The notes below the pieces were generated by a model. That model saw nothing but the letters and a program-made list of their open reading frames with translations. It was not told where the DNA came from and ran no database searches. Below, one piece after another: positions 8,967 to 26,083 of a stretch of 64,000 nucleotides of DNA. Numbering within the stretch: the stretch's first letter is position 1; each line of letters begins with the position of its first letter. A program made the translations under genes and the position numbers. The stretch comes from Clostridiales bacterium (GTDB lineage: Bacteria; Bacillota; Clostridia; Lachnospirales; WQUN01), in NCBI GenBank assembly GCA_031269465.1, contig JAISZB010000292.1, forward strand, positions 1-64,000. The letters are read 5' to 3'.

Positions 8967-10387
<1,421 letters not shown>

Positions 10388-10388
<1 letters not shown>

Positions 10389-10726
10389 TGGAGGACAGGA
10401 TCGGCCTTGTCTACTCCTTTGTGATGGAGCGGTGCCTGTGGCAGTTCTTCTCCCGCAACTGGGACAGGGAGGAGAACATCAGACGCATCATGGGGGATGT
10501 GGCCAAGATCCAAAGCGGCCAAGAGGTTGACCGGAGCACTAACATTGCGAACTCCCATTACGCTGACGCGAAAATCCTAGCATCTCAGCTTTCCCAAAGA
10601 TTCGATTGGTTTGACGGCCTGTCATGGGCAAAGGTAAATGAAATTTGCGATGGCGTAATAGAGAAGCTGATGGACATCGCAGTTGTGAACTCGCTCAACG
10701 CCGAGCGCAACGAATCAAAATACTAG
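10388..10726 (+). CDS. anfG: Fe-only nitrogenase delta subunit
   Basis: This 112-residue small subunit occurs only in alternative (V and Fe-only) nitrogenases and is required for a functional AnfD2G2K2 complex. It contains the family's FSRNWDREENI, YADAKILASQLSQRFDWFD and NAERNESKY-like segments. The ATG at 10388 shares one base with the anfD stop, with AAGGGGGG nearby as the ribosome site. Its presence is the key evidence that the cluster is not a Mo nitrogenase. Confidence 0.93.
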
Positions 10727-10739: not shown

Positions 10740-12125
10740 ATGGCGACACTTGTGAAAGACAAACCCCGCACCGGCTGCATAAATCCCATCTTCAACTGCC
10801 AGCCCTGCGGCGCGCAGTTCGCCGCCATAGGGATAAGAGACACCATCGCGCTGGTGCATGGAGGCCAGGGCTGCTGCACCTTCGTCAGGCTGATGTTCGC
10901 GCAGCATTTCAAGGAGAACTTCGACATCGCCTCATCGTCCCTGCATGAGGACGCGGCTGTGTTCGGGGGAACCAAGAGGGTCATTGACGGAGTGAAAAAT
11001 CTTGTCCTGCGCTATCCCGACCTCAAGCTCATACCAATCATAACCACCTGTTCCACCGAAACCATAGGCGACGACATAGAAGCCTGCATTGTCGAGCTAG
11101 ACGCTTGGCTTAAGGAAAACCATCCAAGCCGCGGCATAAGGGTCATCCCAATCCACACCCCCAGCTACAAGGGATCCCAGGCGATGGGGTACAACGCGGC
11201 CATGGAGCAGATTGTCAGGGCTCTGGCCAAGCGCGGGGAACCCAGCAAAAAGGTGAATGTGTTCACAGGATGGGTCAATCCCGGGGATGTGACTGAGCTG
11301 AAGCATCTCTTCTCAGAAATGGGAATCCCGGCCAATATACTTATGGACACCGAGACCTTCGCATCGGGCATCATGCCCGACAAATCCAGTTTCGCATACG
11401 GAGACACCACAGTCTCTGATTTGGCGAACACCGCCAACGCCTTCGCGTCCGTCGCGCCCTGCGCCTATGAGGGAGGGCTTGCCGCCAAGTACCTTGAAAG
11501 CGAATTCAGGGTTCCATCCATGGTGGGCGTGACTCCAATAGGAATAGAGAACACCGACAAGTTCCTGAGGCAGCTCTCCGACCTGACAGGGCGGCGCATC
11601 CCCCGCTCCCTGGTTGAAGAGAGGGCGCGCGCCATTGACTCCATCGTCGATCTGGGGCACATGTTCCTGGCTGGAAAGAGGGTCGCAATCTACGGAGATC
11701 CCGATCTTGTGATAGGGCTCGCTGATTATTGCATCGAGCTTGGAATGGAGCCGGTTCTTCTTCTGATGGGCGATGACCTCAAAGGATACAAAAAGGACAC
11801 AAGGATTGCTGAGCTCGGAAAGAAGGCGGTCGGCTTCGAGATGGAGGTCATATTAAACGCCGATTTGTGGGAGCTTGAAAGGCGCTTGAGAGACGGGATG
11901 AAGCTTGATCTCATCTTGGGGCATTCAAAAGGCCGCTTCATAGCTATAGACTATCAGGTTCCCATGGTGAGGGTCGGATTTCCCGTCTTTGACAGGGCTG
12001 GGATGTGGAAAAACCCCATATTCGGATACCACGGCGCTGAATGGCTTGCGGAGGCCATAGCTAACGAATTCTTCGCGCACATGGAATTTAAAAAAGACAG
12101 GGAATGGATCTTGAATGTTTGGTAG
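10740..12125 (+). CDS. anfK: Fe-only nitrogenase beta subunit
   Basis: The 461-residue beta subunit pairs with AnfD and supplies the other P-cluster ligands. Visible are Cys20/Cys23 in FNCQPCGAQFA, Cys45/Cys46 in GGQGCCTFVR and Cys104 in TTCSTETIGDD. Other family blocks are FVRLMFAQHFKE, VNVFTGWVNPGDVTELKHL and GYHGAEWLAEAI. AnfK and VnfK lack the long N-terminal arm of NifK, and this protein likewise begins only about 19 residues before its first P-cluster Cys. The start lies 14 bases after anfG, following TAGGGGG. A 105-base gap with a possible stem-loop separates it from the scaffold genes. Confidence 0.94.
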   Translation: MATLVKDKPRTGCINPIFNCQPCGAQFAAIGIRDTIALVHGGQGCCTFVRLMFAQHFKENFDIASSSLHEDAAVFGGTKRVIDGVKNLVLRYPDLKLIPIITTCSTETIGDDIEACIVELDAWLKENHPSRGIRVIPIHTPSYKGSQAMGYNAAMEQIVRALAKRGEPSKKVNVFTGWVNPGDVTELKHLFSEMGIPANILMDTETFASGIMPDKSSFAYGDTTVSDLANTANAFASVAPCAYEGGLAAKYLESEFRVPSMVGVTPIGIENTDKFLRQLSDLTGRRIPRSLVEERARAIDSIVDLGHMFLAGKRVAIYGDPDLVIGLADYCIELGMEPVLLLMGDDLKGYKKDTRIAELGKKAVGFEMEVILNADLWELERRLRDGMKLDLILGHSKGRFIAIDYQVPMVRVGFPVFDRAGMWKNPIFGYHGAEWLAEAIANEFFAHMEFKKDREWILNVW

Positions 12126-12132
12126 CTAAGCC

Positions 12133-12172: not shown

Positions 12173-12230
12173 CCAGCGGATCCGCGGCGGTGCTTGCCTT
12201 TGGCGGAGATAAGCCGAGAGGGGGACATGT

Positions 12231-13757
12231 ATGAGGTTTGCTGAGAGCATCGTATTTTCCGGAAGATTAAGCACCCTTTACCAGTTGGCAAAGGAGAAGA
12301 AGATAGATACGGCCCTTCAAGGAAGCCACACCCGTCCCTGCAAATTCTGGACGGCAATGAAGATCCTTTCCGGGATGGAGCGTACAATCGTCATCGCGCA
12401 CGGCCCCTCCGGGTGCGCTTACGGCGTGAAGCAGGCCTACAAGCTGATCAACTGCCGAAACAGCGGGACACCCTATGAAGCGGTGCTGACAACGAGCGTC
12501 AACGAGAAAACCATCATCTACGGAGGAGAAAAGGAGCTCCGGGAAGCGCTTCTCGAAGTTGACCGCAAGTACCGCCCGGATGTGATAGTGGTGGCAACCA
12601 GCTGCGCGACCGGAATCATAGGAGACAATGTGGATGCTGTCGTTGAGGGGGCCAGGGCGCAAATAGGAGCGAAGCTTCTTCCAATCCACTGCGAGGGTTT
12701 CGCTGGGGAGTACCGCTCCGGCTTCGACCTCGTTTTCGGCGAGCTCGCAAAGCTCATGGATCCCCCAACGGAAGAAAGCCGCAAAGCCCTTTCCAGGTCA
12801 GTGAACATCATCGGATCCAAGATGGGGCCTGAGCGCACTGAAGTCGATACAGACGTCAAGGAGCTCATCCGGCTGGTGAAGGGCATGGGGGCGCAGATAA
12901 ACGCGGTGATAGCGGGAGGCTGCTCGCTGGATGAACTCAGGAGGGCGCCGAGCGCCGCCGTGAACTGCGGGCTGTGCTACGACATCGGATACGCCTTGGG
13001 GAGGGAGATGGAGAGGATCCATGGAACCCCCATGAACTCCACAATCCTTCCATACGGAATAGAAGCGACCAAGAGGTGGCTTGCCACAGCGGCAAGGCAT
13101 TTGGGCTTGGAGAAGGAAGCGGATGATTTGTGCGGGCAGGAGTACGAAGCGATCCGTGCGGGGCATGAAGTTGCAAAGCAGAGGCTTATCGGGAAAATCG
13201 GCGTCATTGACGGAAAGGACGCGGTGAAGTCCCTATCAATCGCGCACATGCTTGAAAGGGATTTCGGCATGAGGGCTATCATCTGTAATTTCCATCCATG
13301 GAGCGCAGAAGCCCGCCAGACCAGCATCGACTATCTACTTGAAGCTGGGATTGATCCTGAAATCATCATAACAAAAGGAGCCTTGGCTTTCGGGCGCTAT
13401 GAATCCATGAGGCAAAGCGAGGAGGAGCTTTTGGATTATCTTGGTGGATTGACGAAGGACTCCGCTGTGTATTTCGGATCGTCCCTCAGCTTTCCCAGCA
13501 TTCCTCTGGTGGATTTGAACGCCATTTTGAACAGGCCCCGCTTCGGTTACAAAGGAGCTCTCAAGGTGGCGCAGTGCATATGCAAATCGTTTGACTGCGC
13601 TTCTAGAGGCCGGAGCAGGCTTACTAAGGAAATGGTTTTCCCGCAAGATCCGAACGCCTCCATTGGAGCCGGAAACCTGGGCATGAAAGCAAGCGCCAGC
13701 ATGCCTGACTGCACTTTCTACGGGAAAGGGGGCATGCGCAGGTGCTTAAACGACTGA
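12231..13757 (+). CDS. nifE: NifE-like cofactor scaffold subunit
   Basis: The 508-residue protein belongs to the nitrogenase component 1-like family. Typical blocks are RPCKFWTAMKILSG, IAHGPSGCAYGVKQ, TSCATGIIGDNVDAVV, HCEGFAGEYRSGFD and NIIGSK. It keeps Cys residues at the cluster-binding places (RPC, SGC, SCATG) and a Cys in AVNCGLCYDIG where NifE/NifD carry the cofactor ligand. Next to anfK and before a NifN-like gene, it most likely forms the scaffold on which the NifB product is matured. Its C-terminal tail (about 40 residues after GYKGALKVAQCI) is longer than usual. Azotobacter does not need nifEN for Anf activity, so the role of this dedicated pair is uncertain. GAGAGGGGG precedes the ATG. 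It overlaps the next gene by 16 bases. Confidence 0.8.
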   Translation: MRFAESIVFSGRLSTLYQLAKEKKIDTALQGSHTRPCKFWTAMKILSGMERTIVIAHGPSGCAYGVKQAYKLINCRNSGTPYEAVLTTSVNEKTIIYGGEKELREALLEVDRKYRPDVIVVATSCATGIIGDNVDAVVEGARAQIGAKLLPIHCEGFAGEYRSGFDLVFGELAKLMDPPTEESRKALSRSVNIIGSKMGPERTEVDTDVKELIRLVKGMGAQINAVIAGGCSLDELRRAPSAAVNCGLCYDIGYALGREMERIHGTPMNSTILPYGIEATKRWLATAARHLGLEKEADDLCGQEYEAIRAGHEVAKQRLIGKIGVIDGKDAVKSLSIAHMLERDFGMRAIICNFHPWSAEARQTSIDYLLEAGIDPEIIITKGALAFGRYESMRQSEEELLDYLGGLTKDSAVYFGSSLSFPSIPLVDLNAILNRPRFGYKGALKVAQCICKSFDCASRGRSRLTKEMVFPQDPNASIGAGNLGMKASASMPDCTFYGKGGMRRCLND

Positions 13758-15079
13758 CCTTCGCAGACACGGCTCATAGCAAGGATCCATTGCTCAGCTG
13801 CGCGCTGGAGGGTGTGGCAAGCGTCATAGCAGGCATCAAGGATGCCTGCGTTGTCATACACTCCCCCCAGGGTTGCGCATCCGCCGTGAACGCGGCCTAC
13901 GACCGCCATGAGATAGATTTGACCAAAAGGAAGATTGGGTGCACCCGCCTGTTTGAGTCGGACATCATAATGGGCGCGACCAGCAAGCTTGAGAGGATGA
14001 TCAAGCAGGCAGACGAGAATTTCAAGTCGAGGATAATGTTCGTTGTGGGAACATGCAGCGCCGACATAATCGGAGAGGACATGGAGGCTGTGTGCAGGGG
14101 CATGCGGGGTGAGGTCGGCGCCAAGCTCATTCCGATCATCGCCGGGGGATTTCGGGGTAACAGCAACACAGGAGTCGATCTGGGGCTTGAGGCGCTGCTT
14201 CAGCTGATAGCTCCAAGCGCGTTGCGCATCAAGCGCACAGTGAACCTCATTGCGCCCCAAGCCACCGTGAACCCTGGCTGGCAAGCGGATCTGCAATGGG
14301 TGAAGGAGATTCTATTCGAGCTCGGAATCAGCGTAATGACCACATTCGCCTGCAACACCTCATTGGAGGAGATTGAAAAGGCGGGAACAGCCCAGGCGAA
14401 CCTCCTTCTGAGCCATGACGCAGGCTACGGCTTCGCCTCCCGCATGCATGAGATCCACGGCATACCTTTGATTCTGGATGATATTCCCCTCCCTATCGGC
14501 CTTGAGAACTCGAATAATTGGATAAGGGCATTGGGCGAGCATTTCTCGTGCAGCGGCAAAGCTGAGAAAATCATTTCCAGAGGAGAGGAAAGGGTTGTTG
14601 GGATCTTGCGCAAGCGCGGCATGATGATGATTCCCCGATACCACAACTGCCGGATCGCTGTTGCCTCTGACATGACATTCGGCGTCGGCCTGCTTAGAAT
14701 GCTGTATCTGGAGCTTGAAATGCTGCCAGAGCTGCTGATTGTGAAGTCCTCGGCTCCCGAGGGGGCGAGGCTTATGGAGGCGGAGCTTGAAGAGCTTCGA
14801 ATTTCCCCTGAGGTTGTTCTGGACGCGGACGGGTACCAGATGAAAGAGGCGTTGAAGGCAATCGAGGTGGATGCGGTCGCGGGGTCCGCCTGGGAGAGCT
14901 ACATCGCGGAGGAACTGGGCGTCAAGGTGGCCTTTGATGTGTTTGCTCCCACCAATCGGGTTCTTTACATCCAAGAGCCTTATTGGGGGTATGAGGGAAT
15001 GTTGCGCTTGTTGCAGGCATTCGCTGGGGATTGGGAGCGCGCCTTCAGATCCAAGAGCATAGAGCTTGATTATCTCTGA
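13742..15079 (+). CDS. nifN: NifN-like cofactor scaffold subunit
   Basis: The 445-residue partner of the NifE-like protein starts at GTG 13742, nine bases after AAAGGGGG, and overlaps the previous gene. Blocks include DPLLSCALEGVASVIAGIKD, HSPQGCASAVNAAY, VGTCSADIIGEDMEAV and GGFRGNSNTGVDLG. Cysteines at LSC, QGC and GTC match the intersubunit cluster positions. NifN lacks a cofactor-ligand Cys, and here the equivalent region reads GTAQANLLLSHDAGYGFASR without one, which supports NifN over a D- or E-type protein. The length matches NifN. It is the last gene before a 570-base gap with two MITE-A copies. Confidence 0.8.
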   Translation: MLKRLTFADTAHSKDPLLSCALEGVASVIAGIKDACVVIHSPQGCASAVNAAYDRHEIDLTKRKIGCTRLFESDIIMGATSKLERMIKQADENFKSRIMFVVGTCSADIIGEDMEAVCRGMRGEVGAKLIPIIAGGFRGNSNTGVDLGLEALLQLIAPSALRIKRTVNLIAPQATVNPGWQADLQWVKEILFELGISVMTTFACNTSLEEIEKAGTAQANLLLSHDAGYGFASRMHEIHGIPLILDDIPLPIGLENSNNWIRALGEHFSCSGKAEKIISRGEERVVGILRKRGMMMIPRYHNCRIAVASDMTFGVGLLRMLYLELEMLPELLIVKSSAPEGARLMEAELEELRISPEVVLDADGYQMKEALKAIEVDAVAGSAWESYIAEELGVKVAFDVFAPTNRVLYIQEPYWGYEGMLRLLQAFAGDWERAFRSKSIELDYL

Positions 15080-15091
15080 TGTTCATATGCT

Positions 15092-15217: not shown

Positions 15218-15483
15218 TTAAGAATCTATGCATCTGCACCAATGGATTCTTCGGCTTAACTCTGCAGTTCAGAGTTTTGAAAGTATAGTAAAGAGTGTTG
15301 ATTTCCAGCCTGAATGCCTGCCATGTGAACAATGGAGTGAAGAACGCCTCAATGCCAAGAAGCGCTCAGTTGAACAGCCAAGACGGCTCTGGAAAATAAA
15401 GCTATTAAGACATTGCCTTGCGCTTATCCTCTCCTAAAATGAAATGGCTTAAATTAAGGGTTTTCCTGAATTTAAGCAGCTTG
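15218..15483. other. segment between two MITE-A copies
   Basis: A plus-strand frame of 69 codons (15228-15437) lies here without a ribosome site or recognisable domain. No other gene is seen. The segment is flanked by two nearly identical elements in direct orientation, 266 bp apart. Confidence 0.35.
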
Positions 15484-15610
15484 GCATACTGCTTTTCATA
15501 TAAAACTGCCTTTTTTGGAGCTTGATTATACAGCGAGTGCGAAATTCATTTCGCACCTTTCAATGGATAATCAAGCTCCAAAAAAGAAACATTTGATGAA
15601 AAGCGGTATA
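15484..15610 (+). mobile_element. MITE-A full copy upstream of the metal transporter
   Basis: This copy has the same structure as 15092-15217 (GCATACTGCTTTTCAT at the left, ATGAAAAGCGGTATA at the right). The terminal ATG at 15596 opens a 19-codon frame whose TGA (15653-15655) overlaps the permease ATG at 15652 as ATGA, so the element may provide a coupled leader peptide. The usual GG of the ribosome site is mutated here (AAAAGAAAC), which would weaken initiation. Confidence 0.85.
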
Positions 15611-15651
15611 TCCCGCTTGTTTTCGGATAAGCCAGAAAGGAGATGCAGGCC

Positions 15652-16683
15652 ATGATTGGCAACAATAAAGAAGCGCGGCGCTATTCAGTGGTTTTCATAT
15701 GCGTTGTTCTGCTGATCCTCTCTTTCACGATATCCCTGGGACTGGGCAGAGCATTCACCTTAGGAGACATTTGGACGCATGTCTCAGGCGTTCTCAGGGG
15801 GGATCAAGGGACAAACAGCGCGTACATAAGCATAGTGCTGCTCAAGATACGGATCCCTCGCATACTGGCGGCCATTTGCGTGGGGATGTCATTGGCGACG
15901 GCGGGAGCGTCCTACCAGGGATTATTCCAAAATCCGATGGTGTCGCCTGATATCCTGGGCGCCTCCGCCGGAGCGGGTTTGGGGGCCGCCATCGCCATTC
16001 TGATGGGTGCGGGCGCAATCGGCGTGCAGCTTCTGTCATTCGCATGCGGCATCATGGCCGTGGGGCTTACCTATGCTGTGAGCCTGAGCGTTGGAGGCAA
16101 GCAGAAGACGGTTCTTATGCTGGTGCTCTCAGGCATGGTGACAGGCTCTCTGATGACCGCTTGCGTATCCATCACCAAATATCTGGCGGACACTGATGAC
16201 AAGCTCCCGGCCATAACTTTTTGGTTGATGGGTTCCTTGGCGTCCGTGACCCAAAATGACTCAATGCTTCTTTTCTTGTTGTTCCTTGCTGGGGGAATCC
16301 CACTGTTCTGCCTGAGGTGGAAGCTCAACGTCCTTTCTTGCGGAGAGGAGGAAGCGCAGTCCATGGGAATCAACACAAGGAGGATGCAGGTGGCTGTCAT
16401 AGCCTGCTCCACCATGCTCAGCGCAGCCTCTGTCTCAATCGCCGGAATGATAGGCTGGGTGGGGCTGGCGGTTCCCCATATCGCCAGGATGCTGGTGGGT
16501 TCGAATTACAAGTCCCTGCTTCCTGTATCAGCGCTGATTGGAGGCATCTTCCTGCTAATTGCGGATGATATGGCCCGTTGCCTAACGACGGCTGAGATCC
16601 CTCTGGGAATACTGACATCCTTATGCGGCGCCCCATTCTTTTTGTATCTTCTTTTGCGCACAAACAAGCTTTGGTCGGCATAG
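15652..16683 (+). CDS. FecCD-type ABC transporter permease
   Basis: This 343-residue membrane protein of the FecCD/BtuC class has nine or ten hydrophobic segments. Family blocks are ILAAICVGMSLATAGASYQG, NPMVSPDILGASAGAGLGA and the cytoplasmic ATPase-contact helix near GWVGLAVPHIARMLVGSNYK. It forms the channel of an importer with the ATPase and binding lipoprotein encoded next. Substrates of this class are ferric siderophores, haem, cobalamin or, in MolBCA, molybdate and tungstate. The ATG at 15652 is preferred over the one at 15643 because AAAGGAG ends ten bases before it and zero to one base before the other. Its place inside an Fe-only nitrogenase island suggests iron supply, but molybdate scavenging cannot be excluded. 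Confidence 0.9.
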   Translation: MIGNNKEARRYSVVFICVVLLILSFTISLGLGRAFTLGDIWTHVSGVLRGDQGTNSAYISIVLLKIRIPRILAAICVGMSLATAGASYQGLFQNPMVSPDILGASAGAGLGAAIAILMGAGAIGVQLLSFACGIMAVGLTYAVSLSVGGKQKTVLMLVLSGMVTGSLMTACVSITKYLADTDDKLPAITFWLMGSLASVTQNDSMLLFLLFLAGGIPLFCLRWKLNVLSCGEEEAQSMGINTRRMQVAVIACSTMLSAASVSIAGMIGWVGLAVPHIARMLVGSNYKSLLPVSALIGGIFLLIADDMARCLTTAEIPLGILTSLCGAPFFLYLLLRTNKLWSA

Positions 16684-16734
16684 GCGGATTGGATGGCTAA
16701 TCGCGGCATTTCTTTGCTTGAGGGGGGTGATGGC

Positions 16735-17568
16735 ATGGTCAAACCGGCTCTTTTGGAGCTTCGCCGCGTTTGTTGCGGATATGGAGCGAATGAAGTTGTG
16801 CGAGATGTTTCATTCTCGTTGCATGAAGGGGAAATCCTTTGCCTTCTAGGGCCGAACGGAGTGGGTAAGACGACTTTGTTCAAAGCTGTCCTGGGTTTCA
16901 TAAAGACGACGAAGGGTTCCATATTGGTTGAGGGCAAGGAGATGTCAGGGTTGGGGAGAAGGCAGCTCGCAAAGTCCATCTCCTTTGTGCCGCAGGCGCA
17001 CCGCATGGCATTCCCCTTCTCCGTCATTGACATTGTGCTGATGGGACGGGTTTCCCATACGGGGACATTCGGGTCTCCAGGCAGGAAAGACTCCGAGATC
17101 GCCATGGGCATGCTCAGGCGATTGGGGATTGAAGGCTTGCATGACAAGTCCTACTCTCAGATAAGCGGCGGCCAGCAGCAGATGGTGCTCATAGCGCGCG
17201 CTCTTGCCCAACAGGCGAAGATTGTCATAATGGATGAGCCAGCGGCAAGCTTGGACTACGGGAACCAGGTGATGGTGCTGGAACAGGTGAAAAAGCTCTC
17301 ATCTGACGGGATAAGCGTGTTGATGACCACCCATTCCCCTGATCACGCCTTCCTCTGCGCGACAAAGGTTGCATTTATGAAGCAGGCCAACTGCTTTGAG
17401 CTGGGAGAAGTGGAAGAGATGGTGACAGAAAGCCAGCTTAGCGACGCTTACGGCATACAAGTCAAGATCGCGCACGCTTTGGGCGGCGACGGTGAATTGG
17501 TGAGCGGCTGCATCCCCCTCATCGGGAAGAAAAAGATCGCAGTCTCTCCCTGTCCCTTGCTGGATTGA
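16735..17568 (+). CDS. FecE-type ABC transporter ATPase
   Basis: The 277-residue ATPase energises the FecCD-type permease. Walker A is GPNGVGKTT, the Q-loop lies in SFVPQAHRM, the signature is ISGGQQQM, Walker B is IVIMDEPAASLD and the H-switch is TTHSPDH. All catalytic elements are intact. The ATG at 16735 is chosen seven bases after AGGGGGG (16721-16727); an in-frame start at 16693 lacks a ribosome site. The last 40 residues after QVKIAHALGGDG are a divergent tail common in this class. Confidence 0.9.
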   Translation: MVKPALLELRRVCCGYGANEVVRDVSFSLHEGEILCLLGPNGVGKTTLFKAVLGFIKTTKGSILVEGKEMSGLGRRQLAKSISFVPQAHRMAFPFSVIDIVLMGRVSHTGTFGSPGRKDSEIAMGMLRRLGIEGLHDKSYSQISGGQQQMVLIARALAQQAKIVIMDEPAASLDYGNQVMVLEQVKKLSSDGISVLMTTHSPDHAFLCATKVAFMKQANCFELGEVEEMVTESQLSDAYGIQVKIAHALGGDGELVSGCIPLIGKKKIAVSPCPLLD

Positions 17569-17879
17569 AGGAAGATCATGCTTGCCCAGCATGACTGGAT
17601 AAAAGCAAATCTTGCAAAACATCAACCCTGATAGGCAGAGGATCGCAAACTAGATTCGCTTGTTGAGGTTATTTATAATCGCTTCAATTTCATTGGGCAT
17701 TTGTTTTTGCTTGACACCATATTGAGTTATCGCTATCTAAATGAAGCGCCAAAACGCTTTGCATAGGATTTCAGGAAAAGTTTGCTTTGGGCATTCGCAA
17801 GAATGCAATGACAAAACGCCTTCTCAACGCGCAAACCATTAAACGGGAATTTAGAATATGAAAGAAAGAGGTAAAGCGG
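17569..17879. other. intergenic leader of the nifB sub-operon
   Basis: The stretch of 311 bases contains the promoter at 17711-17739 and a small hairpin GCATTCGCAAGAATGC at about 17790-17805. No riboswitch class could be recognised in the 130-base leader. Confidence 0.4.
17711..17739 (+). promoter_or_regulatory. promoter for binding protein-nifB-nifV-anfO
   Basis: TTGACA (17711-17716) and TATCTA (17734-17739) are spaced by 17 bases. It lies about 140 bases upstream of the binding-protein gene, giving the maturation genes a start site separate from anfH. Confidence 0.6.
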
Positions 17880-19043
17880 ATGAAAAGCAAAAAACTCTTC
17901 TCGCTGCTCCTTGTTCTATTGATGATCGGGAGCGTTTTACCGGGGTGCGCCTCAAGCTCCAACACAAGCGCAACTGCCGCTGCAACTAGCGCGGCGGCTC
18001 CTGAAGCTCCTGCCCAGGAGATTGAGCAGGCCGCGCCGTCTTTGGCGCCAACGGAAGAAACCGACCAAGAGGATCCCGAAACCAGAACAGTGGTCGATTC
18101 CAAAGGCAATGAAGCCACATTGCCGTATAAAGTCGAAAGGGTCGCAACAAGCGGCGCCCTCAACCAGATGGTGCTTATCCTCGGCCAGCCGCAGAAGATA
18201 GCGGCGACAGCGGAAGGCGTGCAGAAGTCATTTTTCGCCACCGTGTATCCCGGCATTCTGGATGTGCCTGCAGCCTACACCGGAGCGGGTCCGGGAACCC
18301 TCAACATGGAGACGCTTGTCGCAGCCAAGCCGCAGGCCATGTTTGGAGCGCCGGAGGACATGAAGGCCACCTTGGAGGCCGCTGGGATAGCCTCTTTGGA
18401 AGTAGGCCTGGTCACGCCTGAAGACATCAAGAGAACCTTGGGCATTGTGGCGCAGGTGCTTGGGGAGGGAGCGGAGGAGAACGCCGCCGCTTTCAATGAA
18501 TATTATGACAGGAATCTGGCCTTTGTTTCCGAAGGAACAAAGGATGCCGAGAAAGTCAGGGTGTTTGTGGCAGGAAGCGACGGATCCGCCGGAGGGATAT
18601 CATCCATTGGCCGCAATGACATACACACCAGCTATATAGAGGCGGCTGGAGGACTAAACATTGTAGCGGAGGACGCCGAACTCTCAGCTGAGGCCGCCCC
18701 CAGCGTTGATTTTGAGTATCTGATGAAAGCCCAGCCTGATGTTGTCATTGTCTCCGCTAAAAACGCCTATGACTCAATACTGGCTCCGGGCGAGGAGAAT
18801 CTCTGGCGGAAGCTGGACGCTGTTGCAACGGGAAAGGTGTATCTGGTTCCTAAAGGGGTTTACCTTTGGAACGTGCGCAGCTGCGAAGGGGCTTTGCAGC
18901 CGCTGTTCCTGGCTTCTGTCCTCCACCCGGATCTGTTCCCGGATCTGGATGTGAAGCAGGAGGCCAAGGACTTCTATGAAAGGTTCTACCACTACGAATT
19001 GACGGATGCTGAGGTTGAGGACATCTTCAGCCAGAACACCTGA
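17880..19043 (+). CDS. FecB/TroA-type metal-chelate binding lipoprotein
   Basis: The 387-residue extracellular substrate-binding protein has a lipoprotein signal peptide (residues 1-23, lipobox LPGC) and an Ala/Thr/Glu-rich spacer to about residue 65. A class III binding fold with a long central helix follows (TVVDSKGNEATLP, AATAEGVQKSFFATVYPG, GTLNMETLVAAKPQAMFG, QPDVVIVSAKNAYDSI, KVYLVPKGVYLWNVRS). It delivers substrate to the permease encoded at 15652. The ATG follows AAAGAGGT. The stop overlaps the nifB start (TGATG), so import and cofactor synthesis are translationally linked. The substrate (iron chelate or molybdate-like oxyanion) cannot be read from the sequence. Confidence 0.88.
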   Translation: MKSKKLFSLLLVLLMIGSVLPGCASSSNTSATAAATSAAAPEAPAQEIEQAAPSLAPTEETDQEDPETRTVVDSKGNEATLPYKVERVATSGALNQMVLILGQPQKIAATAEGVQKSFFATVYPGILDVPAAYTGAGPGTLNMETLVAAKPQAMFGAPEDMKATLEAAGIASLEVGLVTPEDIKRTLGIVAQVLGEGAEENAAAFNEYYDRNLAFVSEGTKDAEKVRVFVAGSDGSAGGISSIGRNDIHTSYIEAAGGLNIVAEDAELSAEAAPSVDFEYLMKAQPDVVIVSAKNAYDSILAPGEENLWRKLDAVATGKVYLVPKGVYLWNVRSCEGALQPLFLASVLHPDLFPDLDVKQEAKDFYERFYHYELTDAEVEDIFSQNT

Positions 19044-19942
19044 TGGGGGCTTCAGCCGCGCCTGAGAAAACTGTTGGCTCGAAGACGCTTTCGCACCCCT
19101 GCTTCAGCTGCGGGGCGTCAGGCGCGTGCGCCAGGATTCATCTGCCTGTGGCGCCCAAGTGCAACATCAGCTGCAATTACTGCGTCCGCAAATTCGACTG
19201 CCCCAATGAAAATCGGCCAGGGGTCGCAGCGCATGTGATTTCCCCGCGAGAAGCAGCGGAACGGTTTGCCTATTTTAGGAAGCGTGTCGGCAACTTGAAG
19301 GTCGTGGGCATAGCAGGCCCTGGCGACGCCTTGGCTAATCCTGATGAAACCCTATCAACCATGGAGCTGATAAGGGCGCTGGATCCAGAAGTCACGTTGT
19401 GCCTGGCAACCAATGGCCTGGCCCTTCCACGGTTTCTGAATGACTTGGTTGATGTTGGAGTCTCCCATGTCACTGTGACAATAAACACCCTGAATCCAGC
19501 CACAGGCGCCTGCATCTGCAGGTTTGTCAATCACATGGGCAGGATCTTAGAAGGCGAGGAAGGCGCTGCGATTCTTCTGGAGAACCAGTTGGCTGGCGTC
19601 TCCCAGCTGGCCAAGCAGGGAATAGCCTGCAAAGTCAACACTGTAGCGCTGCGCGGGGTGAACGAGGACGAAATAGCCTCCATTGCTGCGGATATCCGCA
19701 GGCGCGGCGCGGCCATCCACAATGTCATGAACATGATCCCTGTTGCGGGAAGCGCCTTTGAGGATCTGGCCCCTTTAGATGATGAAGAGCTAAATGCCTT
19801 GAGGGACAAAGCAGCCATTGGCATCAAGCAAATGAGGCATTGTCGGCGCTGCAGGGCTGACGCTGCGGGAACTTTGGCGCATGACGAGTCCATTTCATCT
19901 TCTTGGACGCTTGATCAAAGGAGGCAGCGCTGTGAAGCTTGA
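19043..19942 (+). CDS. nifB: radical SAM cofactor precursor synthase NifB
   Basis: The 299-residue NifB converts two [4Fe-4S] units plus a SAM-derived carbide and sulfite into NifB-co, the precursor of all nitrogenase cofactors. The N-terminal HPCFSCGASGACARIHLPVAP precedes the radical SAM motif CNISCNYC (CxxxCxxC), then NENRPGV and the GIAGPGDALANP loop. A C-terminal RHCRRCRADAAG supplies further cluster cysteines. It has no C-terminal NifX-like domain, the compact form common in anaerobes. The ATG overlaps the binding-protein stop, and the end overlaps nifV-omega by 11 bases. Confidence 0.94.
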   Translation: MGASAAPEKTVGSKTLSHPCFSCGASGACARIHLPVAPKCNISCNYCVRKFDCPNENRPGVAAHVISPREAAERFAYFRKRVGNLKVVGIAGPGDALANPDETLSTMELIRALDPEVTLCLATNGLALPRFLNDLVDVGVSHVTVTINTLNPATGACICRFVNHMGRILEGEEGAAILLENQLAGVSQLAKQGIACKVNTVALRGVNEDEIASIAADIRRRGAAIHNVMNMIPVAGSAFEDLAPLDDEELNALRDKAAIGIKQMRHCRRCRADAAGTLAHDESISSSWTLDQRRQRCEA

Positions 19943-21014
19943 GTTGGTAGACCGCACGATTGGATGGATCGCACAGAGCAAAGCGGGAAATGCGGACTGG
20001 CCACGCCTGATAGATTTAATAGGGAAGTATCCTGTGGCCATGATCGACTATCCTTTTCCAATTATTCCTGCGCAAGGAAGCCATATCAAGGCTAGGATGG
20101 AGATTCCGCCGTCCCTCTTAGCATCCGATCCGGAAGCGCTGAAGAGGATCTCCATGTCTGGTTGCTGCCATGCCGCCATTTCAATGCGCTTTGGCTCAGC
20201 GAGCCTTGATGAGGCCAAAAAAGCCGCGCTGGCCGCGCATAGGCATTTAAAAAGCGTTTCACTGAAGCTTCCCGATGCATCGAAAATGGATGCGCAGGCA
20301 TTGGATGAGTGCATTGCCGCTGCCTGGGACGCGGGGATTTCGAGCATTATTTTCTGTGATGGGCAAAGCGTGCTTTCGCCTCAGGAAACATTCGGGCTAA
20401 TAAGGGAATTGGTTCAAAGATCCTGCTGCGCGATAGAATTCTGCCCTGGAAACAAGTATGGATTGGCTGCGGCAAACGCGTTCGCAGCCCTAAAGGCCGG
20501 TGTGCGAAGGGTGCATACCTGCGCTGGCGGGTTGGCGCCTTCCGGGGCGGCAATGGAGGAGGTGCTTTTTAGCGCGAAGCGGTTCCTGGGAGATAAGACA
20601 GACACAAAAAGCATTGCCCAGGATTGCGGGATGCTCCTGCGGGCCGCTCAAAGGGATGTCCCTTCGAATAAGGCGATAATCGGGGAAGACATATTCGCCC
20701 ATGAATCCGGCATCCACGTGGACGGCGTCATGAAGAACCCCGCTTTGTATGAAGCTATTGAGCCATCTGAAGTCGGCCTGTCCAGAAGGCTGGTGGTTGG
20801 AAAGCATTCCGGAAGGAAAGCGATCAGGGGCAAGCTCTTGGATTTCGGGGTGGACGCCAGCGATGAGGCGGCTGAGATCATCATGCATCAAGTGAAGCGC
20901 CTAGCGGAGAAGCAGAAGCGCGCTTTGGCCGATTCCCAGCTTTTAAGCCTGTATGCCGAATATGCATATGGAGTCGCGGAGAAAGCGGAGGTGCTGGCAA
21001 GTGGAGCTGGTTGA
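19932..21014 (+). CDS. nifV-omega: homocitrate synthase, omega subunit
   Basis: The 360-residue protein is one of two subunits of a split homocitrate synthase, as known from Clostridium pasteurianum. The N-terminal part is a degenerate TIM-barrel (LELVDRTIGWIAQSKAG), while the C-terminal part carries the family's AHESGIHVDGVMKNPALYE and GLSRRLVVGKHSGRKAI blocks, involved in dimerisation and substrate binding. Homocitrate is the organic ligand of nitrogenase cofactors, including FeFe-co. GTG 19932 is chosen because AAAGGAGG (19917-19924) lies seven bases upstream; the frame is open back to 19881 inside nifB. It overlaps nifV-alpha by 14 bases. Confidence 0.88.
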   Translation: MKLELVDRTIGWIAQSKAGNADWPRLIDLIGKYPVAMIDYPFPIIPAQGSHIKARMEIPPSLLASDPEALKRISMSGCCHAAISMRFGSASLDEAKKAALAAHRHLKSVSLKLPDASKMDAQALDECIAAAWDAGISSIIFCDGQSVLSPQETFGLIRELVQRSCCAIEFCPGNKYGLAAANAFAALKAGVRRVHTCAGGLAPSGAAMEEVLFSAKRFLGDKTDTKSIAQDCGMLLRAAQRDVPSNKAIIGEDIFAHESGIHVDGVMKNPALYEAIEPSEVGLSRRLVVGKHSGRKAIRGKLLDFGVDASDEAAEIIMHQVKRLAEKQKRALADSQLLSLYAEYAYGVAEKAEVLASGAG

Positions 21015-21873
21015 CACAACGCTTCGGGATGGGGAGCAAACAGCCGGCATCGTGTTCTCAGCCGATGAGAAGCTTGATATGGTGCGCGCGCTGAATGCCA
21101 TAGGCATTGGATGGATCGAGGCGGGGATCCCCGCCATGGGGCCCGATGAGCGGGAAGTGCTCAAAGAGATGCTCCGAGTCAACAAAACTTCCGCCATGAT
21201 CGCATGGAACCGGGCCGACAAAGGGGACATCGCCAATTCGATCTCCTGCGGATTCCAGTTCATCCATGTTTCACTGCCGGCTTCTGATTTCCACATTGAG
21301 CATAAGTTGCGCAAGAGCCGGGAATGGGTGCTTGCGAGATTGAGGGAGGTTCTGGCGCAGGCCAAAGGAGAAGGCGCAAGCCTGATTGTCGGCGCGGAGG
21401 ACGCCTCCCGCGCGGATCCCGAGTTTTTCCTGAGGTTCGCTGACGCGGCGGCTTCCTGCGGCGCAATCAGAATCCGCTATGCGGACACTGTGGGATGCAT
21501 GGAGCCTTTCACGGCCGCGGAAATTTTTTCGGATTTGGCGAAGCGCTCGCCTCTGCCCATTGAATTCCATGGGCACAATGATTTAGGCCTTGCTGTCGCC
21601 AATACATTGGCGGCCTGCCAGAACGGGATCCCTTATGCAAGCGTGACATCCATCGGCATAGGGGAGAGGGCTGGAAACGCGAGCCTGGAGGATTTCGCGG
21701 GAGTGATGCGCTTCGTCTGCCGCAGCCCCCTCAAGCTTCGAATGGAGCATCTCCCAAAGCTAGCCAGCATTGTCAGAGGCGCCGCAAGGCGCAAGCAATG
21801 CCCGCAACCCATATATACTGGTTTTCATAGAAAACTGCCTTTTTTGGAGCTTGATCCAGGCTTAAATGGATAA
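21001..21873 (+). CDS. nifV-alpha: homocitrate synthase, alpha (catalytic) subunit
   Basis: The 290-residue catalytic TIM-barrel subunit condenses acetyl-CoA with 2-oxoglutarate. MELVDTTLRDGEQTAGIVFS holds the Arg-Asp metal-binding start motif, IEAGIPAMGPDE the substrate loop, and IEFHGHNDLGLAVANTLAA the two metal-ligand histidines (HGHND). GTG 21001 follows GGAGGTG with seven bases spacing and overlaps nifV-omega. About the last 20 residues (YTGFHRKLPFLELDPGLNG) and the TAA are encoded by an inserted MITE-A copy (from 21814), so the native C-terminus has been replaced. Whether the added tail matters is unknown. Confidence 0.9.
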   Translation: MELVDTTLRDGEQTAGIVFSADEKLDMVRALNAIGIGWIEAGIPAMGPDEREVLKEMLRVNKTSAMIAWNRADKGDIANSISCGFQFIHVSLPASDFHIEHKLRKSREWVLARLREVLAQAKGEGASLIVGAEDASRADPEFFLRFADAAASCGAIRIRYADTVGCMEPFTAAEIFSDLAKRSPLPIEFHGHNDLGLAVANTLAACQNGIPYASVTSIGIGERAGNASLEDFAGVMRFVCRSPLKLRMEHLPKLASIVRGAARRKQCPQPIYTGFHRKLPFLELDPGLNG

Positions 21874-21909: not shown

Positions 21910-21939
21910 GCGCAAAAAGGCCTGAAAGGATTGATTCAG

Positions 21940-22548
21940 ATGAAAATAGGGGTGCTTGTTGACGGGGATGGAATGGCGACCGCGTTTGAAAGCGGCGGAT
22001 TCTTAAAAGTCTATGAGGTCACAGGCTCAAGCGTTGAGCTTTTGAAGGAGAGGGTCTGCGCCGGCGCGGCGGGCCAAGGGGCCGAGGCGATTCGCGCAGG
22101 CATCAGGGAGCTCGCTCAATGGCTTGGCGACTGCAAGGTGATTGTGGCAAGCCGCTTGAAAGGCATCTGCTTCACAGTGTTTGATGGTCTTCTATTCAAC
22201 ATGTGGGAGGTGTCCGGAGACCCTGCCGGATTTCTGGATCTCATTCGCCAGCGGGAGCTCATGGAGCAGGAAGAGGCCAGAAGGCCTGAAAAGATCCATG
22301 TCCCAAAGGAAAAGGGGCGGAACACGTTTTTCATCGACCTCGAAGCCGTTTTGGACTCCGATGGCAGCGCGACATCCAAGAAGGTCCTATTGCCCTTCTT
22401 AAGGAAGGAGAGCTTCAAGGCCTTGGAGGTAAAATGCGGGCATGTGCCCCGCTGGTTTGAAAAAGAGCTTCCGGCACTCAAAATGGAATCAGCGCAAGAG
22501 AAGACAGAAGACGGGTATCTAGTGACAATCAAGCCTATAACCTTGTGA
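21940..22548 (+). CDS. anfO: Fe-only nitrogenase accessory protein AnfO
   Basis: This is a 202-residue member of the AnfO family, which accompanies Fe-only nitrogenases (anfHDGKOR in Azotobacter) and is needed for diazotrophic growth with that enzyme by an unresolved mechanism. The start MKIGVLVDGDGMATAFESGG resembles the beta-strand opening of AnfO proteins. GCKVIVASRLKGICFTVFDG-like and FLDLIRQRELMEQEEARRP-like segments (CKVIVASRLKGICFTVFDG, FLDLIRQRELMEQEE) follow. ATG 21940 is the family start, with AAAGGA (21925-21930) upstream. The frame extends back to an ATG at 21895 inside the MITE-A copy with a stronger ribosome site, which would add 15 residues. AnfR was not found. Confidence 0.82.
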   Translation: MKIGVLVDGDGMATAFESGGFLKVYEVTGSSVELLKERVCAGAAGQGAEAIRAGIRELAQWLGDCKVIVASRLKGICFTVFDGLLFNMWEVSGDPAGFLDLIRQRELMEQEEARRPEKIHVPKEKGRNTFFIDLEAVLDSDGSATSKKVLLPFLRKESFKALEVKCGHVPRWFEKELPALKMESAQEKTEDGYLVTIKPITL

Positions 22549-22600: not shown

Positions 22601-23065
22601 ATGAAAATCAGGTCTGATTTTGTGACAAACAGCAGCTCGGTCAGCTACCTTGTGACATTCAACCCTGAAATGGCGGAATTCGGAAAGCTGGTGAAATTCA
22701 ACAATTTCAAGGATGACGCCAAAAACAGGAGGATATATGATTTGCTGAGCCAAGACCTGTCATCCACAGGCGATTTGCTGGAGAAGAACGGGAACGCGAT
22801 ATATGTCAAGCAGTATGATTTCTCAAAAAAGCCTGACAGCACATTTGACAGCTCCTTCGGAGTCCCCATTGATGAGGTGGATTTCTCATCATTGGGCGAT
22901 GACGAGGTGTGGTCCTACATCCATGGCGAGTATCTTGTGAATGGCAGGCTTGCGGCGGAACTCAAAGGCTTTGGTTCGCTTCAGGTGCCAAGGGACAAGA
23001 AGGCCCTGGCGCTTAAGCATGAGGCTGTCTGCAAGAGAAAGCTCGTTGCGGGCGATCTGCCATGA
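22601..23065 (+). CDS. hypothetical protein with N-terminal KIRSDFVTNSSS motif
   Basis: The 154-residue protein begins MKIRSDFVTNSSSVSYLVTF. The short K(I/V)R..FV(S/T)NSSS..(S/Y)F opening occurs at the N-terminus of many otherwise unrelated small bacterial and archaeal proteins. I know no function for it. The remainder is mixed alpha/beta and charged, with no signal peptide, membrane segment or metal motif. The ATG at 22601 is chosen because GGAAGGGG lies about ten bases upstream. The stop overlaps the radical SAM start as ATGA, a strong sign of coupled synthesis. It may be the substrate or partner of that enzyme, which is inference. Confidence 0.7.
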   Translation: MKIRSDFVTNSSSVSYLVTFNPEMAEFGKLVKFNNFKDDAKNRRIYDLLSQDLSSTGDLLEKNGNAIYVKQYDFSKKPDSTFDSSFGVPIDEVDFSSLGDDEVWSYIHGEYLVNGRLAAELKGFGSLQVPRDKKALALKHEAVCKRKLVAGDLP

Positions 23066-24093
23066 TCGTAGCCAAACGCGCCCCCGCCTATAACTTCTAC
23101 GGCAACACCGACACCGGGCTCACCCTTCGGTGGGGCAAGACAATGGAGGAAAACCCCCTGCGCGCCCCTTGGCCTGAATTGGCGGACATCTCGATCAGCA
23201 ACCACTGCACCAAGGGATGCGGCTTCTGCTATAGGGGAAGCGGGGACAACGGCTCCTTCATGCCGCTTGAAAGCTATGAGTCAGTGCTGGACGCCCTGAC
23301 AAGCCCGGTGTACGGCAGCGTGTTCCAGGTGGCGCTGGGAGGCGGGGAGCCGCTGGAGCACCCCGCTTTCCTGGATATCCTCAAGGCTACGGCTGAGAGG
23401 GGCATTGCCGCCAACTTCACCACAAACGGAGAATTGGTGGATCGCTCCCTGGCGGCCGCCTTGGATGGGTTGGTGGGGGCGGCCGCCATTTCAACCAATT
23501 GGATGTCCGGCTATGATCCCCGAAAAGCCGTCGTGCTCGCCGATTCAGGAATCAAAGTCAACCTCCATTTTGTGCTTAGCAAGGAATCCTTGCAGGACGC
23601 CATCGGATTGCTGGAGGGAAAGTTCAACAGATTGCTGGAAGGAGTCAACGGGGTTGTTTTTCTGACATACAAGCCCAAAGGCAGAGCGCTTGCGCAGTCC
23701 TGCCTATCCATGAATGATTCCAGGTTCAAGGAGTTCATAAGTAAAATAAGCCTGAATTCGTGCAGGGCGAAAATCGGGTTTGACGCCTGTTTTGTTCCAC
23801 TGCTTCTGAGATACACATCTGTGGACGCTGATTATGTGGATTCCTGCGAATGCGGATTCTTCTCCATCTACATTGACGAACTCGGAAACGCATCCCCATG
23901 CTCATTCGCAAATGATGGCCGCTACCGCTTCAACCTGTCCGCATACAGCATGAACCAGATCTGGAACAACTGCTTTGAGGCTTACCGCGAGGAAATGCTA
24001 TCCGTGAAATGCGCCGACGAGATCTGCGCGAACGCTGAGCATTGCAGGGGAAAATGCAGTTTTTACGAGCAGATTTCCTTTTGCTGCACATAA
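23062..24093 (+). CDS. radical SAM protein with cysteine-rich C-terminus (SPASM/twitch-like)
   Basis: The 343-residue radical SAM enzyme has the cluster motif CTKGCGFC (CxxxCxxC) near residue 50, GGGEPLEHP as the SAM-binding glycine motif and a TTNGELVD strand. The C-terminal third holds many cysteines (DSCECGFFSIYIDELG, ASPCSFAND, then several in CADEICANAEHCRGKC). This resembles SPASM or twitch auxiliary-cluster domains of peptide-modifying enzymes and anaerobic sulfatase maturases. It is co-translated with the VTNSSS protein. I infer post-translational modification of a neighbour-encoded protein, or a step in cofactor or Fe-S biology linked to AnfDGK. It is not NifB-like and has no NifX domain. 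Confidence 0.8.
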   Translation: MIVAKRAPAYNFYGNTDTGLTLRWGKTMEENPLRAPWPELADISISNHCTKGCGFCYRGSGDNGSFMPLESYESVLDALTSPVYGSVFQVALGGGEPLEHPAFLDILKATAERGIAANFTTNGELVDRSLAAALDGLVGAAAISTNWMSGYDPRKAVVLADSGIKVNLHFVLSKESLQDAIGLLEGKFNRLLEGVNGVVFLTYKPKGRALAQSCLSMNDSRFKEFISKISLNSCRAKIGFDACFVPLLLRYTSVDADYVDSCECGFFSIYIDELGNASPCSFANDGRYRFNLSAYSMNQIWNNCFEAYREEMLSVKCADEICANAEHCRGKCSFYEQISFCCT

Positions 24094-24106
24094 ACAGAGG
24101 TGAGGC

Positions 24107-25081
24107 ATGAGAAACTTTCAAACACTCGACAATCAACTAATGCAAACGCCGCGCGGCTTGTTTTGCGGAGTCTCATCCTTTGCCTGCCACAATTCCGGAG
24201 AGCTTCAAGGCATCAATCTGGATAGGAGAAACAAGCTCAAAACGCTAGCCGGAGATTTCATTCCTGCCTACATTGAGACTGAGCGCAGAAAAAACAAGTA
24301 TTCAGTGGAATTCTTCAAAAGCGGCGCAGTGAAGGCGGTTGCCCTCAATGAGCAGGAGGAGGCGGCGACGCCCATAGGCCGCCTTCCCGCGGAAATGCTC
24401 ACATTCTTTGAATCAGGCGAGCTATGCCGGCTGTTTCCCTCTGACGGCAAAATAAGCGGCTTCTGGAGCGAAGAGGATGAGAGGGGCATGCAAATTCCAT
24501 TGTCCCTTGATTTGGGTTTCACCAGATTCACTGCCAGAATCAGCTCAATATGCTTCCATCAAAGCGGATGCATCCGAAGCTCCGCCCTTTTTCCAGGGGA
24601 GGCGATAGATGTCCCCACCAAGTATGGAGCCGTAGAGTCCAGAAACGGCGTTTCCCTTTACGAGTCAGGCGAGCTTGAATCCTTGGAGCCTTTGCGGCCA
24701 ACTGGAATAGCAACGCCAATCGGAGTTCTGTCAGCGTATGATCCCCTTGCCATAGGAATCAGCGCTGATCGCAATTCGCTTGGATTTTACAGGAATGGCG
24801 AGGTTGCGAGGCTGATTGCCGCCGGGAACAGGATTGCAGTGCAGACGCCTGACGGGCAGGTCCATCAATGCAAGCCCAGAAGGACTCCCCATATGACGCA
24901 GGATGGAATGGAGCAGATCGCAGGCTTGCCTGTCGCCTTCAAGTCTGATGGAACAATTGAAATCGGTCGGAGCAGGTTCGCAATCTCTAAATGCATTTTC
25001 TCAATAGGCGAGGAGGATGCAGATGGGCAGGACTATGCCTGTTCCCCAAGCGATTGCATGAACTGCCTGCTTTGCCGCTAG
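24107..25081 (+). CDS. repeat protein with (Y/F)ESGE(L/V) motifs and CxxxxCxxCxxC tail
   Basis: The 324-residue protein is built of beta-strand repeats each carrying a motif like FFESGELCRLFP, LYESGELESLEP, FYRNGEVARLIA or FFKSGAVKAVAL. A turn such as TPIGRLP or TPIGVLS lies between them. The pattern recalls MORN-like antiparallel repeats. The extreme C-terminus, YACSPSDCMNCLLCR, has four cysteines in a CX4CX2CX2C arrangement that could bind a metal or Fe-S cluster, or be a modification site for the radical SAM protein encoded upstream. The start lies 13 bases after that gene with GAGGTGAGGC as ribosome site. I recall similar proteins in clostridia but know no function. It is the last gene before the terminator. 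Confidence 0.7.
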   Translation: MRNFQTLDNQLMQTPRGLFCGVSSFACHNSGELQGINLDRRNKLKTLAGDFIPAYIETERRKNKYSVEFFKSGAVKAVALNEQEEAATPIGRLPAEMLTFFESGELCRLFPSDGKISGFWSEEDERGMQIPLSLDLGFTRFTARISSICFHQSGCIRSSALFPGEAIDVPTKYGAVESRNGVSLYESGELESLEPLRPTGIATPIGVLSAYDPLAIGISADRNSLGFYRNGEVARLIAAGNRIAVQTPDGQVHQCKPRRTPHMTQDGMEQIAGLPVAFKSDGTIEIGRSRFAISKCIFSIGEEDADGQDYACSPSDCMNCLLCR

Positions 25082-25247: not shown

Positions 25248-25266
25248 TTAGTGTCAGGGAATGAGA

Positions 25267-25301
25267 CAAAAGGGCCGCTTGCTATGCAGGCGGCCCTTTT
25301 G
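25267..25301. terminator. bidirectional terminator at the end of the anf island
   Basis: CAAAAGGGCCGC (25267-25278) pairs perfectly with GCGGCCCTTTTG (25290-25301) around an 11-base loop. The A and T runs on either side allow function in both directions. Confidence 0.88.
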
Positions 25302-26083
25302 TCGCGTGGCGCAAGCTTCGATCATTTATGACACATACAACTAAGTCGCGGTCGACGCGAAGATCGATCCTTTGCCGACATGCGAGTGAACCATAGCTGA
25401 AAGGGATCAGAACTCGCTTTCGGAAAAGGGGTGCTCCGCGAGAGAGCTGATCTTTTTCGATCAGGGCTATCCGTCTTTCGATCTCATACATAAAATAGAA
25501 TAACTGGGGTTTACCTACTTGACGTTAACTTCGAAGAACTTCAATCAGGACACCGCCGCACAGAAAAGACGTTCGAAGACAAACTGTAGAACACTTAAAA
25601 TAAAATGAAATATATTTTTGCAAATTACAAATATAGTTATTATTACCTTCTAGATTGGGATAGCCCGAAATAATATTCATTTCAGTGACGATCATTCCTT
25701 TACGAATGTCGAGATGCCGCTCTGATTCAGGATATAGATCTGTAATTGCAGTATAGATTGGAAATATTGCAAAATCAGAATGTTCCAGCTCAACATCATT
25801 GAAGGGCCTATTTCGGCGAGCCTGCACAACTGGAGAGCATTTGCTCATGAGTAGGCATGTGTATGCACTTAATCTCATCCATGTTCAAGGCGGCCCCCAT
25901 TAGGAGCCAACTGGCCATCAACCTCACCCTGTCCAGCAAGTGCTAAGGCATGTGCGCAAATAAGATGCTCATCTCTTAATGTCGCATTATTGTCCTAAGG
26001 TGTTTATCCAAAAAAAGCTTTAAATTAGAAACCCATCTAAAACTGAAATTGTAGATTTTCATCGCTTTGATTGATTTTTATTG
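25302..26083. other. intergenic region with unassigned minus-strand frames
   Basis: Two minus-strand frames (25878-25525 and 25491-25282) are open and moderately protein-like (for example HLDIRKGMIVTEMNIISG), but they lack ribosome sites and recognisable domains. They could be pieces of one decayed gene. Nothing else is seen. Confidence 0.3.

Follow-up and report, generated by a model that had tools for sequence, protein, structure and literature searches.

Radical SAM enzymes equipped with a SPASM domain include anSME (TIGR03942), which acts on a short linear motif, Ser included, within a folded protein. Those with solved structures that are most relevant here (SuiB, SkfB and PqqE, peptide-modifying enzymes of SPASM or twitch type) act on short precursor peptides and either possess a recognition domain or make use of one. 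The present text concerns a pair of adjacent genes that invites comparison with both, found in a stretch of 64,000 nucleotides from a Clostridiales bacterium (contig JAISZB010000292.1, positions 1 to 64,000 of the forward strand; the whole of this stretch is referred to below as the window). Gene 1 encodes a protein, called SSS here, that begins with a conserved Ser-rich sequence (the “tag”), and gene 2 encodes a radical SAM/SPASM enzyme; we consider it probable that the enzyme reads the tag of its neighbour and modifies it.

The resemblance to anSME lies in the short linear motif and in the fact that Ser at residue 15 of the tag is sometimes replaced by Cys; the differences are that the tag is strictly N-terminal and common to unrelated proteins, that these are not sulfatases, and that a relative of the enzyme, L027, scores 17 bits against the anSME model, the cut-off of which is 349. 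SuiB, SkfB and PqqE are the closest solved sequences and share the pattern of auxiliary cysteines, but the partners here are folded proteins and the enzyme has no such recognition domain. With GeoRSP, WgkB, TIGR04317 and other radical SAM families of NCBIfam the general domain architecture is held in common, but the window's enzyme reaches only 56 bits against a cut-off of 400 for GeoRSP, and 43 against 650 for WgkB. Two other described systems are relevant through their position: antiphage NACHT/STAND proteins of the AVAST type 2 (Avs2) kind, or related to it, are neighbours of the pair in two other clades, but in the window no STAND gene can be made out next to it, while a gene related to A. 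vinelandii AnfO (PMC9310841) adjoins the pair and its downstream neighbour, the ESG gene, and partners the latter, although here it stands in a V-type rather than an Fe-only nitrogenase cluster.

No family in Pfam or NCBIfam covers the pair. Its phage members, both enzyme and tagged proteins, correspond to phrog_7293 and phrog_7397 of PHROGs, each listed there with unknown function. Within open-licence PubMed Central texts, no description was found of the tag/enzyme pair (the letters of the tag matched one unrelated paper) or of Avs2 systems with a radical SAM gene, and texts on radical SAM proteins in connection with NACHT/STAND, conflict systems, SMEK or Avs2 yielded nothing describing the pair. 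A radical SAM domain likely to modify a peptide effector has been noted in FtsH ternary systems (PMC7159879, 2020), which is a different context. The tag/enzyme system is apparently undescribed so far.

The tag and the proteins that carry it

The consensus of 163 non-redundant tagged proteins is M-K-[IV]-[RK]-x-D-F-V-T-N-S-S-S-[STV]-S-[FY]-[IVL]. Both N10 and S11 are present in 163/163, S13 in 161/163 and K2 in 156/163; S12 is invariant too, having been demanded by the search pattern, and is also invariant in alignment A3. Residue 15 is Ser in 148/163 and Cys in 6/163. The position of the tag is strict too: of 207 cases, 203 have the aromatic residue exactly 6 residues past the start, and the other four likewise lie at the N-terminus. 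The Ser codons switch between AGY and TCN and selection therefore acts on the protein, so that a signal at the level of RNA or DNA can be ruled out. Variants of the tag occur at L141, where His replaces Phe7 (MKCRHGHVTNSSSSSF).

Behind the tag there is very little in common. The bodies of the tagged proteins fall into 53 groups that have no detectable BLAST similarity to one another, and a comparison of 198 pairs from within arrays gave an identity of 79.5% for the tags but of 24.3% for the bodies, close to the shuffled value of 22.5%. These partners are folded proteins (median 137 amino acids (aa), mostly 100-200 aa, up to 675 aa), and hence not the short precursor peptides of a RiPP (ribosomally synthesised and post-translationally modified peptide) pair. 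For the window's own tagged protein 26 relatives were aligned, 24-65% identical to it. In its AlphaFold2 (AF2) model residues 1-10 are disordered (predicted local distance difference test, pLDDT, 44) and the body is well folded (mean pLDDT 86.6); the tag is the most conserved part of the protein although predicted to be disordered. The protein matches nothing in Pfam or NCBIfam, its body found nothing at E<=0.001 in fold searches of the PDB and BFVD, and a phage search with it gave no match. The tagged proteins at L034, L037, L042 and L044, which belong to the vnf branch described below, end in a Cys tail of the CxxCER..C(H) type that is missing from those of the Avs2 branch (alignment A3).

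Co-occurrence of tag and enzyme

An alignment-based scan for the enzyme yielded 80 loci from 84,980 genomes and 76 from IMG/VR; many of these come from metagenome-assembled genomes. The family as used here comprises 121 loci (L033-L153), radical SAM proteins from L154 onwards being more distant. A tagged protein occurs near 113 of the 121, of which 110 were found by pattern within 3 kb and the others (L054, L055 and L141) by eye, and the family loci without one lie mostly near contig ends; near the more distant proteins (L154 and beyond) there are no tagged proteins at all. The number of tagged proteins beside an enzyme relative ranges from 1 to 10.

The same association is seen when starting from the tag. 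Among 291 genomes of the class the pattern occurs in five, and these are the same five that carry the enzyme (p = 6e-11); the reversed pattern, used as a control, gave 0 matches, which rules out a chance motif. Four other genomes of the class hold radical SAM relatives at 33-39% identity, and in three of these, as well as in a fifth found via gene 1, an MK[IF]RxDFVTNSSS-like start is encoded directly beside the enzyme on a body that is unrelated; in the fourth (G232) the tag lies about 2 kb away. A tag-first search of viral contigs gave 73 distinct records, 58 of them also with the enzyme. Residue 14 of the tag tracks the enzyme clade, being V/A in 33/33, T in 42/42 and S in 108/123 cases for the respective clades, a covariation that fits recognition of the one by the other. 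To judge from these sequence comparisons, genes 1 and 2 are a widespread pair, and the proposal of the initial annotation that the Ser-rich N-terminus is a candidate target has gained considerably, the tag being strongly tied to the enzyme by co-occurrence, position and covariation.

The radical SAM/SPASM enzyme

Gene 2 matches Radical_SAM (PF04055, 3.6e-11) above the cut-off, with the CX3CX2C motif at C49-C53-C56. Its own SPASM match is weak (14.6 bits, cut-off 21.5), but the relatives L027 and L030 exceed the cut-offs of both PF13186 and TIGR04085, and the SPASM cysteines are conserved in the alignment. Eight further conserved cysteines (C243, C262, C280, C317, C322, C328, C332 and C341 in alignments A1 and A2) are likely ligands of auxiliary clusters, the pattern being that of SPASM enzymes with two such clusters. 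By profile search the nearest solved structures are SuiB (E 6e-15), SkfB (1e-11) and PqqE (3e-9), and matches of NirJ and BtrN type are also found; against NCBIfam the best 25 of 29 matches are all far below their cut-offs. The enzyme groups with SPASM enzymes that modify proteins and peptides, in keeping with the architecture first ascribed to it. In the alignment the N-terminal segment that precedes the barrel is too short to hold a separate domain of the PqqD/RRE-like kind, and because of this the enzyme most likely reads the tag itself.

The canonical cluster motif is not universal in the family: of 132 enzymes examined by pattern, 21 have CX7CX6C and 15 have CX5CX3C; L107, L119, L126 and L066 are among the homologues with these non-canonical spacings. 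Phage radical SAM genes at L139:4429-6789 and L280:3795-6131 encode proteins of 778-786 aa with an apparent intein-like insertion after the SAM motif, and another, in G763 (the record of L283, 88336-89298), has an in-frame TGA, for which a recoded phage or an assembly error is possible. The phage radical SAM protein had no match among named phage records, and in a sample of Bacteroidia the enzyme was present in 1 of 237 genomes, namely the centre genome itself.

Genomic contexts of the pair

A tree of 91 enzyme sequences has three main parts, of 30, 40 and 21 rows. The window's enzyme lies in the 30-row clade, within a group of 12 rows (itself included) that come from genomes with VnfD (11) or AnfD (1). 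Setting the window's own genome aside leaves ten with VnfD; in eight of them VnfD and the pair share a contig, and in a ninth vnfE/N is on the contig of the pair. Just outside the group branch L043 and L053, from two additional VnfD genomes in which VnfD is again on the contig of the pair. For comparison, VnfD exceeds its cut-off in just one of 398 genomes of the phylum, which is the window's own. In this vnf branch transporter genes often adjoin the pair. In the sister group of the 12 rows, all 11 of 11 members stand directly before an Avs2-like protein.

The 40-row clade consists mostly of a four-gene operon encoding a STAND protein, a protein of about 135 aa, a tagged protein and the enzyme. 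The first of these is an Avs2-related NACHT/STAND protein of 700-1080 aa with variable N-terminal domains (SMEK, trypsin, abhydrolase), and public annotation of two plasmid copies reads SMEK protein, hypothetical, hypothetical, radical SAM. This operon recurs at L060-L114, in the roughly 3 kb ahead of the radical SAM gene at each locus, the N-terminal effector of the NACHT/STAND protein being interchangeable, and it has the appearance of a defence system not described so far. The 21-row clade is rich in large phages, where arrays of up to 10 tagged proteins occur and where many enzymes have CX7CX6C or CX5CX3C in place of CX3CX2C.

Most relatives of the enzyme are therefore to be found in defence-type operons or phages and have no nitrogenase nearby. 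Two parts of the initial annotation need to be separated at this point. A link to Fe-only nitrogenase is not supported, since the link is to vanadium nitrogenase and belongs to one clade. The neighbourhood survey that had been called for shows that genes 1, 2 and 3 are not conserved together, so that for the trio the refuting outcome named in advance has come about; for the pair, on the other hand, there is a real branch with linkage to nitrogenase.

Interpretation

Drawing on sequence comparison and on predicted models, the events may be pictured as follows. The enzyme would directly recognise the flexible tag MKIRxDFVTNSSSxSF of the neighbouring protein, and would oxidise or cross-link that protein within, or immediately beside, the invariant run F-V-T-N-S-S-S-x-S. 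There are two candidate chemistries. One is that of sulfatase maturases, by which a Ser of N-S-S-S-x-S would be oxidised (Cys sometimes takes the place of S15); the other is that of cyclophane-forming enzymes, by which F7 or F16 would be joined to a residue close by. The tag would be portable, different lineages attaching it to differing folded proteins that might thereby be switched on, anchored or matured. In the lineage of the window the tagged protein would have been recruited to gene clusters of vanadium nitrogenase, where a part for the pair in metal uptake or in maturation of the VFe protein is possible; in the sister lineage recruitment would have been to operons of Avs2-type STAND NTPases and, among large phages, to small-protein arrays.

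Several considerations weigh against this. Fifteen of the 73 tag-bearing viral records lack the enzyme, and although most are fragments, one is 122 kb long. The covariation at residue 14 could simply reflect the inheritance of both genes as one operon. The tag could also serve for docking alone, the modified site being another one, or could bind a third partner. As to the nitrogenase branch, support for the 12-row clade is moderate (SH-like approximate likelihood ratio test, SH-aLRT, 82), its link to VnfD was ascertained from the enzyme side, and Fe-only-type (AnfD) genomes without the enzyme exist (G1125, G1105 and G940).

Were the tag a docking (leader) sequence and nothing else, as are RiPP leaders, the residue that the enzyme modifies would belong to the body of the tagged protein or to some third protein, and the tag is indeed leader-like in being N-terminal, conserved and part of a disordered tail; but with bodies in 53 dissimilar groups a common target within them is not apparent, and the N-terminal part of the enzyme is not long enough to include a recognition domain of its own, so that we think this unlikely. 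A good deal less likely still is that the product of the enzyme is a cofactor (small-molecule or metal) and the tag a mark of the proteins that use it (in the window's lineage, a cofactor for nitrogenase maturation). The linkage to nitrogenase, and the action of some SPASM relatives on small molecules (cf. the NirJ- and BtrN-type matches), would suit such a scheme, which offers no ready account of why the tag should accompany the enzyme in phages as well as in STAND operons and nitrogenase clusters. The least probable of these explanations, to which we attach hardly any weight, is that of the initial annotation, by which the three genes together would serve to mature Fe-only nitrogenase, the enzyme taking both its neighbours as substrates: the tight gene spacing speaks for it, but the nitrogenase is V-type, anfO and ESG occur together without the enzyme in eight genomes, and the AnfD-type genomes G1125, G1105 and G940 have no enzyme.

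A separate question, compatible with any of these mechanisms, is that of purpose. A defence or anti-defence module captured by vnf clusters, having no role in nitrogen fixation, is a serious rival to a role in nitrogenase function, even if on balance we find it doubtful. The 11/11 members of the sister clade directly before Avs2-like proteins are in its favour, as is the recurrence in a second clade of the four-gene operon with Avs2-related NACHT/STAND proteins; but the nitrogenase link on the same contig in at least eight other genomes of one clade, and in two just outside it, is hard to see as passive capture, and inspection of the open reading frames (ORFs) surrounding the window's pair made no STAND gene evident.

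Returning to modification of the tag by the enzyme, a more general and distinctly tentative version of this reading, which we would not expect to hold in full, is that one enzyme family marks any protein that begins with MKIRxDFVTNSSSxSF. In bacteria and archaea the mark would license immune proteins of the STAND type and also, within a single branch, the vanadium nitrogenase, and the enzyme and tagged-protein arrays that large phages carry for themselves would perhaps act as decoys for the same machinery or hijack it. If true, a tag read by a radical SAM enzyme on more than 50 unrelated groups of proteins in bacteria, archaea and phages would amount to a new protein-modification code, and one that relates Avs2-like STAND operons, accessory arrays of large phages and vanadium nitrogenase, which were unconnected before in the open-licence texts searched. 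The pair also offers a directly testable substrate for an uncharacterised family of enzymes, including its subgroups with non-canonical Cys spacing.

The window: nitrogenase genes and gene arrangement

Coordinates of the features discussed are collected in Table 1.

Table 1 Features of the window, with the evidence for each.
Feature	Position	Strand	Basis or remark
vnfD, vanadium nitrogenase alpha subunit	8994..10388	+	TIGR01860, 892.7 bits, above cut-off of 823.1
vnfG-type delta subunit	10388..10726	+	TIGR02930, 114.7 bits; TIGR02929, 67 bits; both below cut-off
vnfK-type beta subunit	10740..12125	+	TIGR02932, 758.1 bits; anfK, 689.5; both below cut-off
Divergent vnfE/vnfN-like pair	12231..15079	+	Best NCBIfam match NifE, 143 and 124 bits, far below cut-off
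AnfO-family protein	21937..22548	+	PF09582, 1.8e-49
Gene 1, tagged protein (SSS), 154 aa	22601..23065	+	Start MKIRSDFVTNSSSVSYLVTF
N-terminal tag, residues 1-18 (MKIRSDFVTNSSSVSYLV)	22601..22654	+	Consensus of 163 non-redundant tagged proteins
Gene 2, radical SAM/SPASM enzyme, 343 aa	23062..24093	+	Pfam/NCBIfam, alignments A1/A2, solved relatives, tree
Gene 3, ESG protein, 324 aa	24107..25081	+	Beta-hairpin repeats, Cys tail; companion of AnfO, outside the tag/enzyme pair
Long inverted repeat, likely (bidirectional) terminator	25265..25303	+	-35 kcal/mol, z -7.4

By the curated models the nitrogenase of the window is of the vanadium type, as read from its genes. With 892.7 bits against VNFD the alpha subunit clears the cut-off of 823.1, whereas its 663.8 bits against ANFD fall short of 873.8, and VnfG is a better match than AnfG; this rules out the label of an anf (Fe-only) operon that the locus had been given, even though VnfK and VnfG, while the best matches, are each below their own cut-offs. 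The run of genes from 7134 to 21873 also holds two GlnB-like nifI genes along with the divergent vnfE/N-like ones, genes for a fec-type ABC transporter at 15643-19043, a short NifB without the C-terminal domain, and a NifV split over two ORFs. Accessory genes of vanadium nitrogenase are poorly known in Bacillota.

Downstream of this run the order is anfO, the SSS/radical SAM pair and then ESG. The anfO assignment comes from PF09582 (168.2 bits, cut-off 30.3), the score against TIGR02940 (121 bits, 5.2e-35) being slightly under the cut-off of 129. The positions first reported for the three genes proved correct, as did the ATGA overlap that joins genes 1 and 2 and the gap of 13 bases between genes 2 and 3. 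Judged by this spacing co-transcription is plausible, and no sigma-70-like sites or simple terminators above shuffles were seen inside the three-gene unit. Of the terminator proposed to follow the unit, the strong hairpin is there, 184 nt 3' of gene 3, and is very stable, but it has no separate U tail; a terminator is still its likely function.

ESG as a companion of AnfO

The ESG protein ends in CSPSDCMNCLLCR, a CX4CX2CX2C motif, and in its AF2 model is an all-beta repeat protein with a disordered tail (306-324); a fold search against the PDB gave no match at E<=0.001 and a plasmid search no match. It occurs in 10 of 196 genomes of the same order, the window's own included. The full-length relatives in other genomes of the order lie directly 3' of an anfO-family gene in 8/8 cases, and in those eight genomes there is no radical SAM homologue of the family of gene 2, from which it follows that ESG is a companion of AnfO. 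Four of the eight loci are within nif clusters (G193, G093, G026 and G087), and the other four have CobW-type GTPases, permeases or other neighbours, with no nif genes in view; anfO-ESG is also present in other vnf clusters. Conversely, the SSS/radical SAM pair is found without ESG nearly everywhere.

The idea of a single three-gene cassette thus falls, as does that of the CX4CX2CX2C tail as a target of the enzyme, the tail being conserved in genomes where the enzyme is missing. As far as sequence and neighbourhood indicate, ESG is an associate of AnfO, distinct from the pair, and stands at the end of this gene run by coincidence.

At L018, L020 and L022 (in G021, G035 and G171), where no nif genes are in view, the neighbours of anfO-ESG are CobW GTPases and a membrane protein of DUF1980-like type, an arrangement suggesting that AnfO-ESG handles metal in settings other than nitrogenase as well. 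The window's genome has a second copy of ESG (G000:C130:1410-2414, L015/L025), about 49% identical, with no anfO, SSS or radical SAM gene within the 20 kb taken. At L014/L024 (G157:C101:1765-2148) a short ORF has fragments resembling nitrogenase H, nitrogenase D and ESG in a row, and is either degraded or chimeric.

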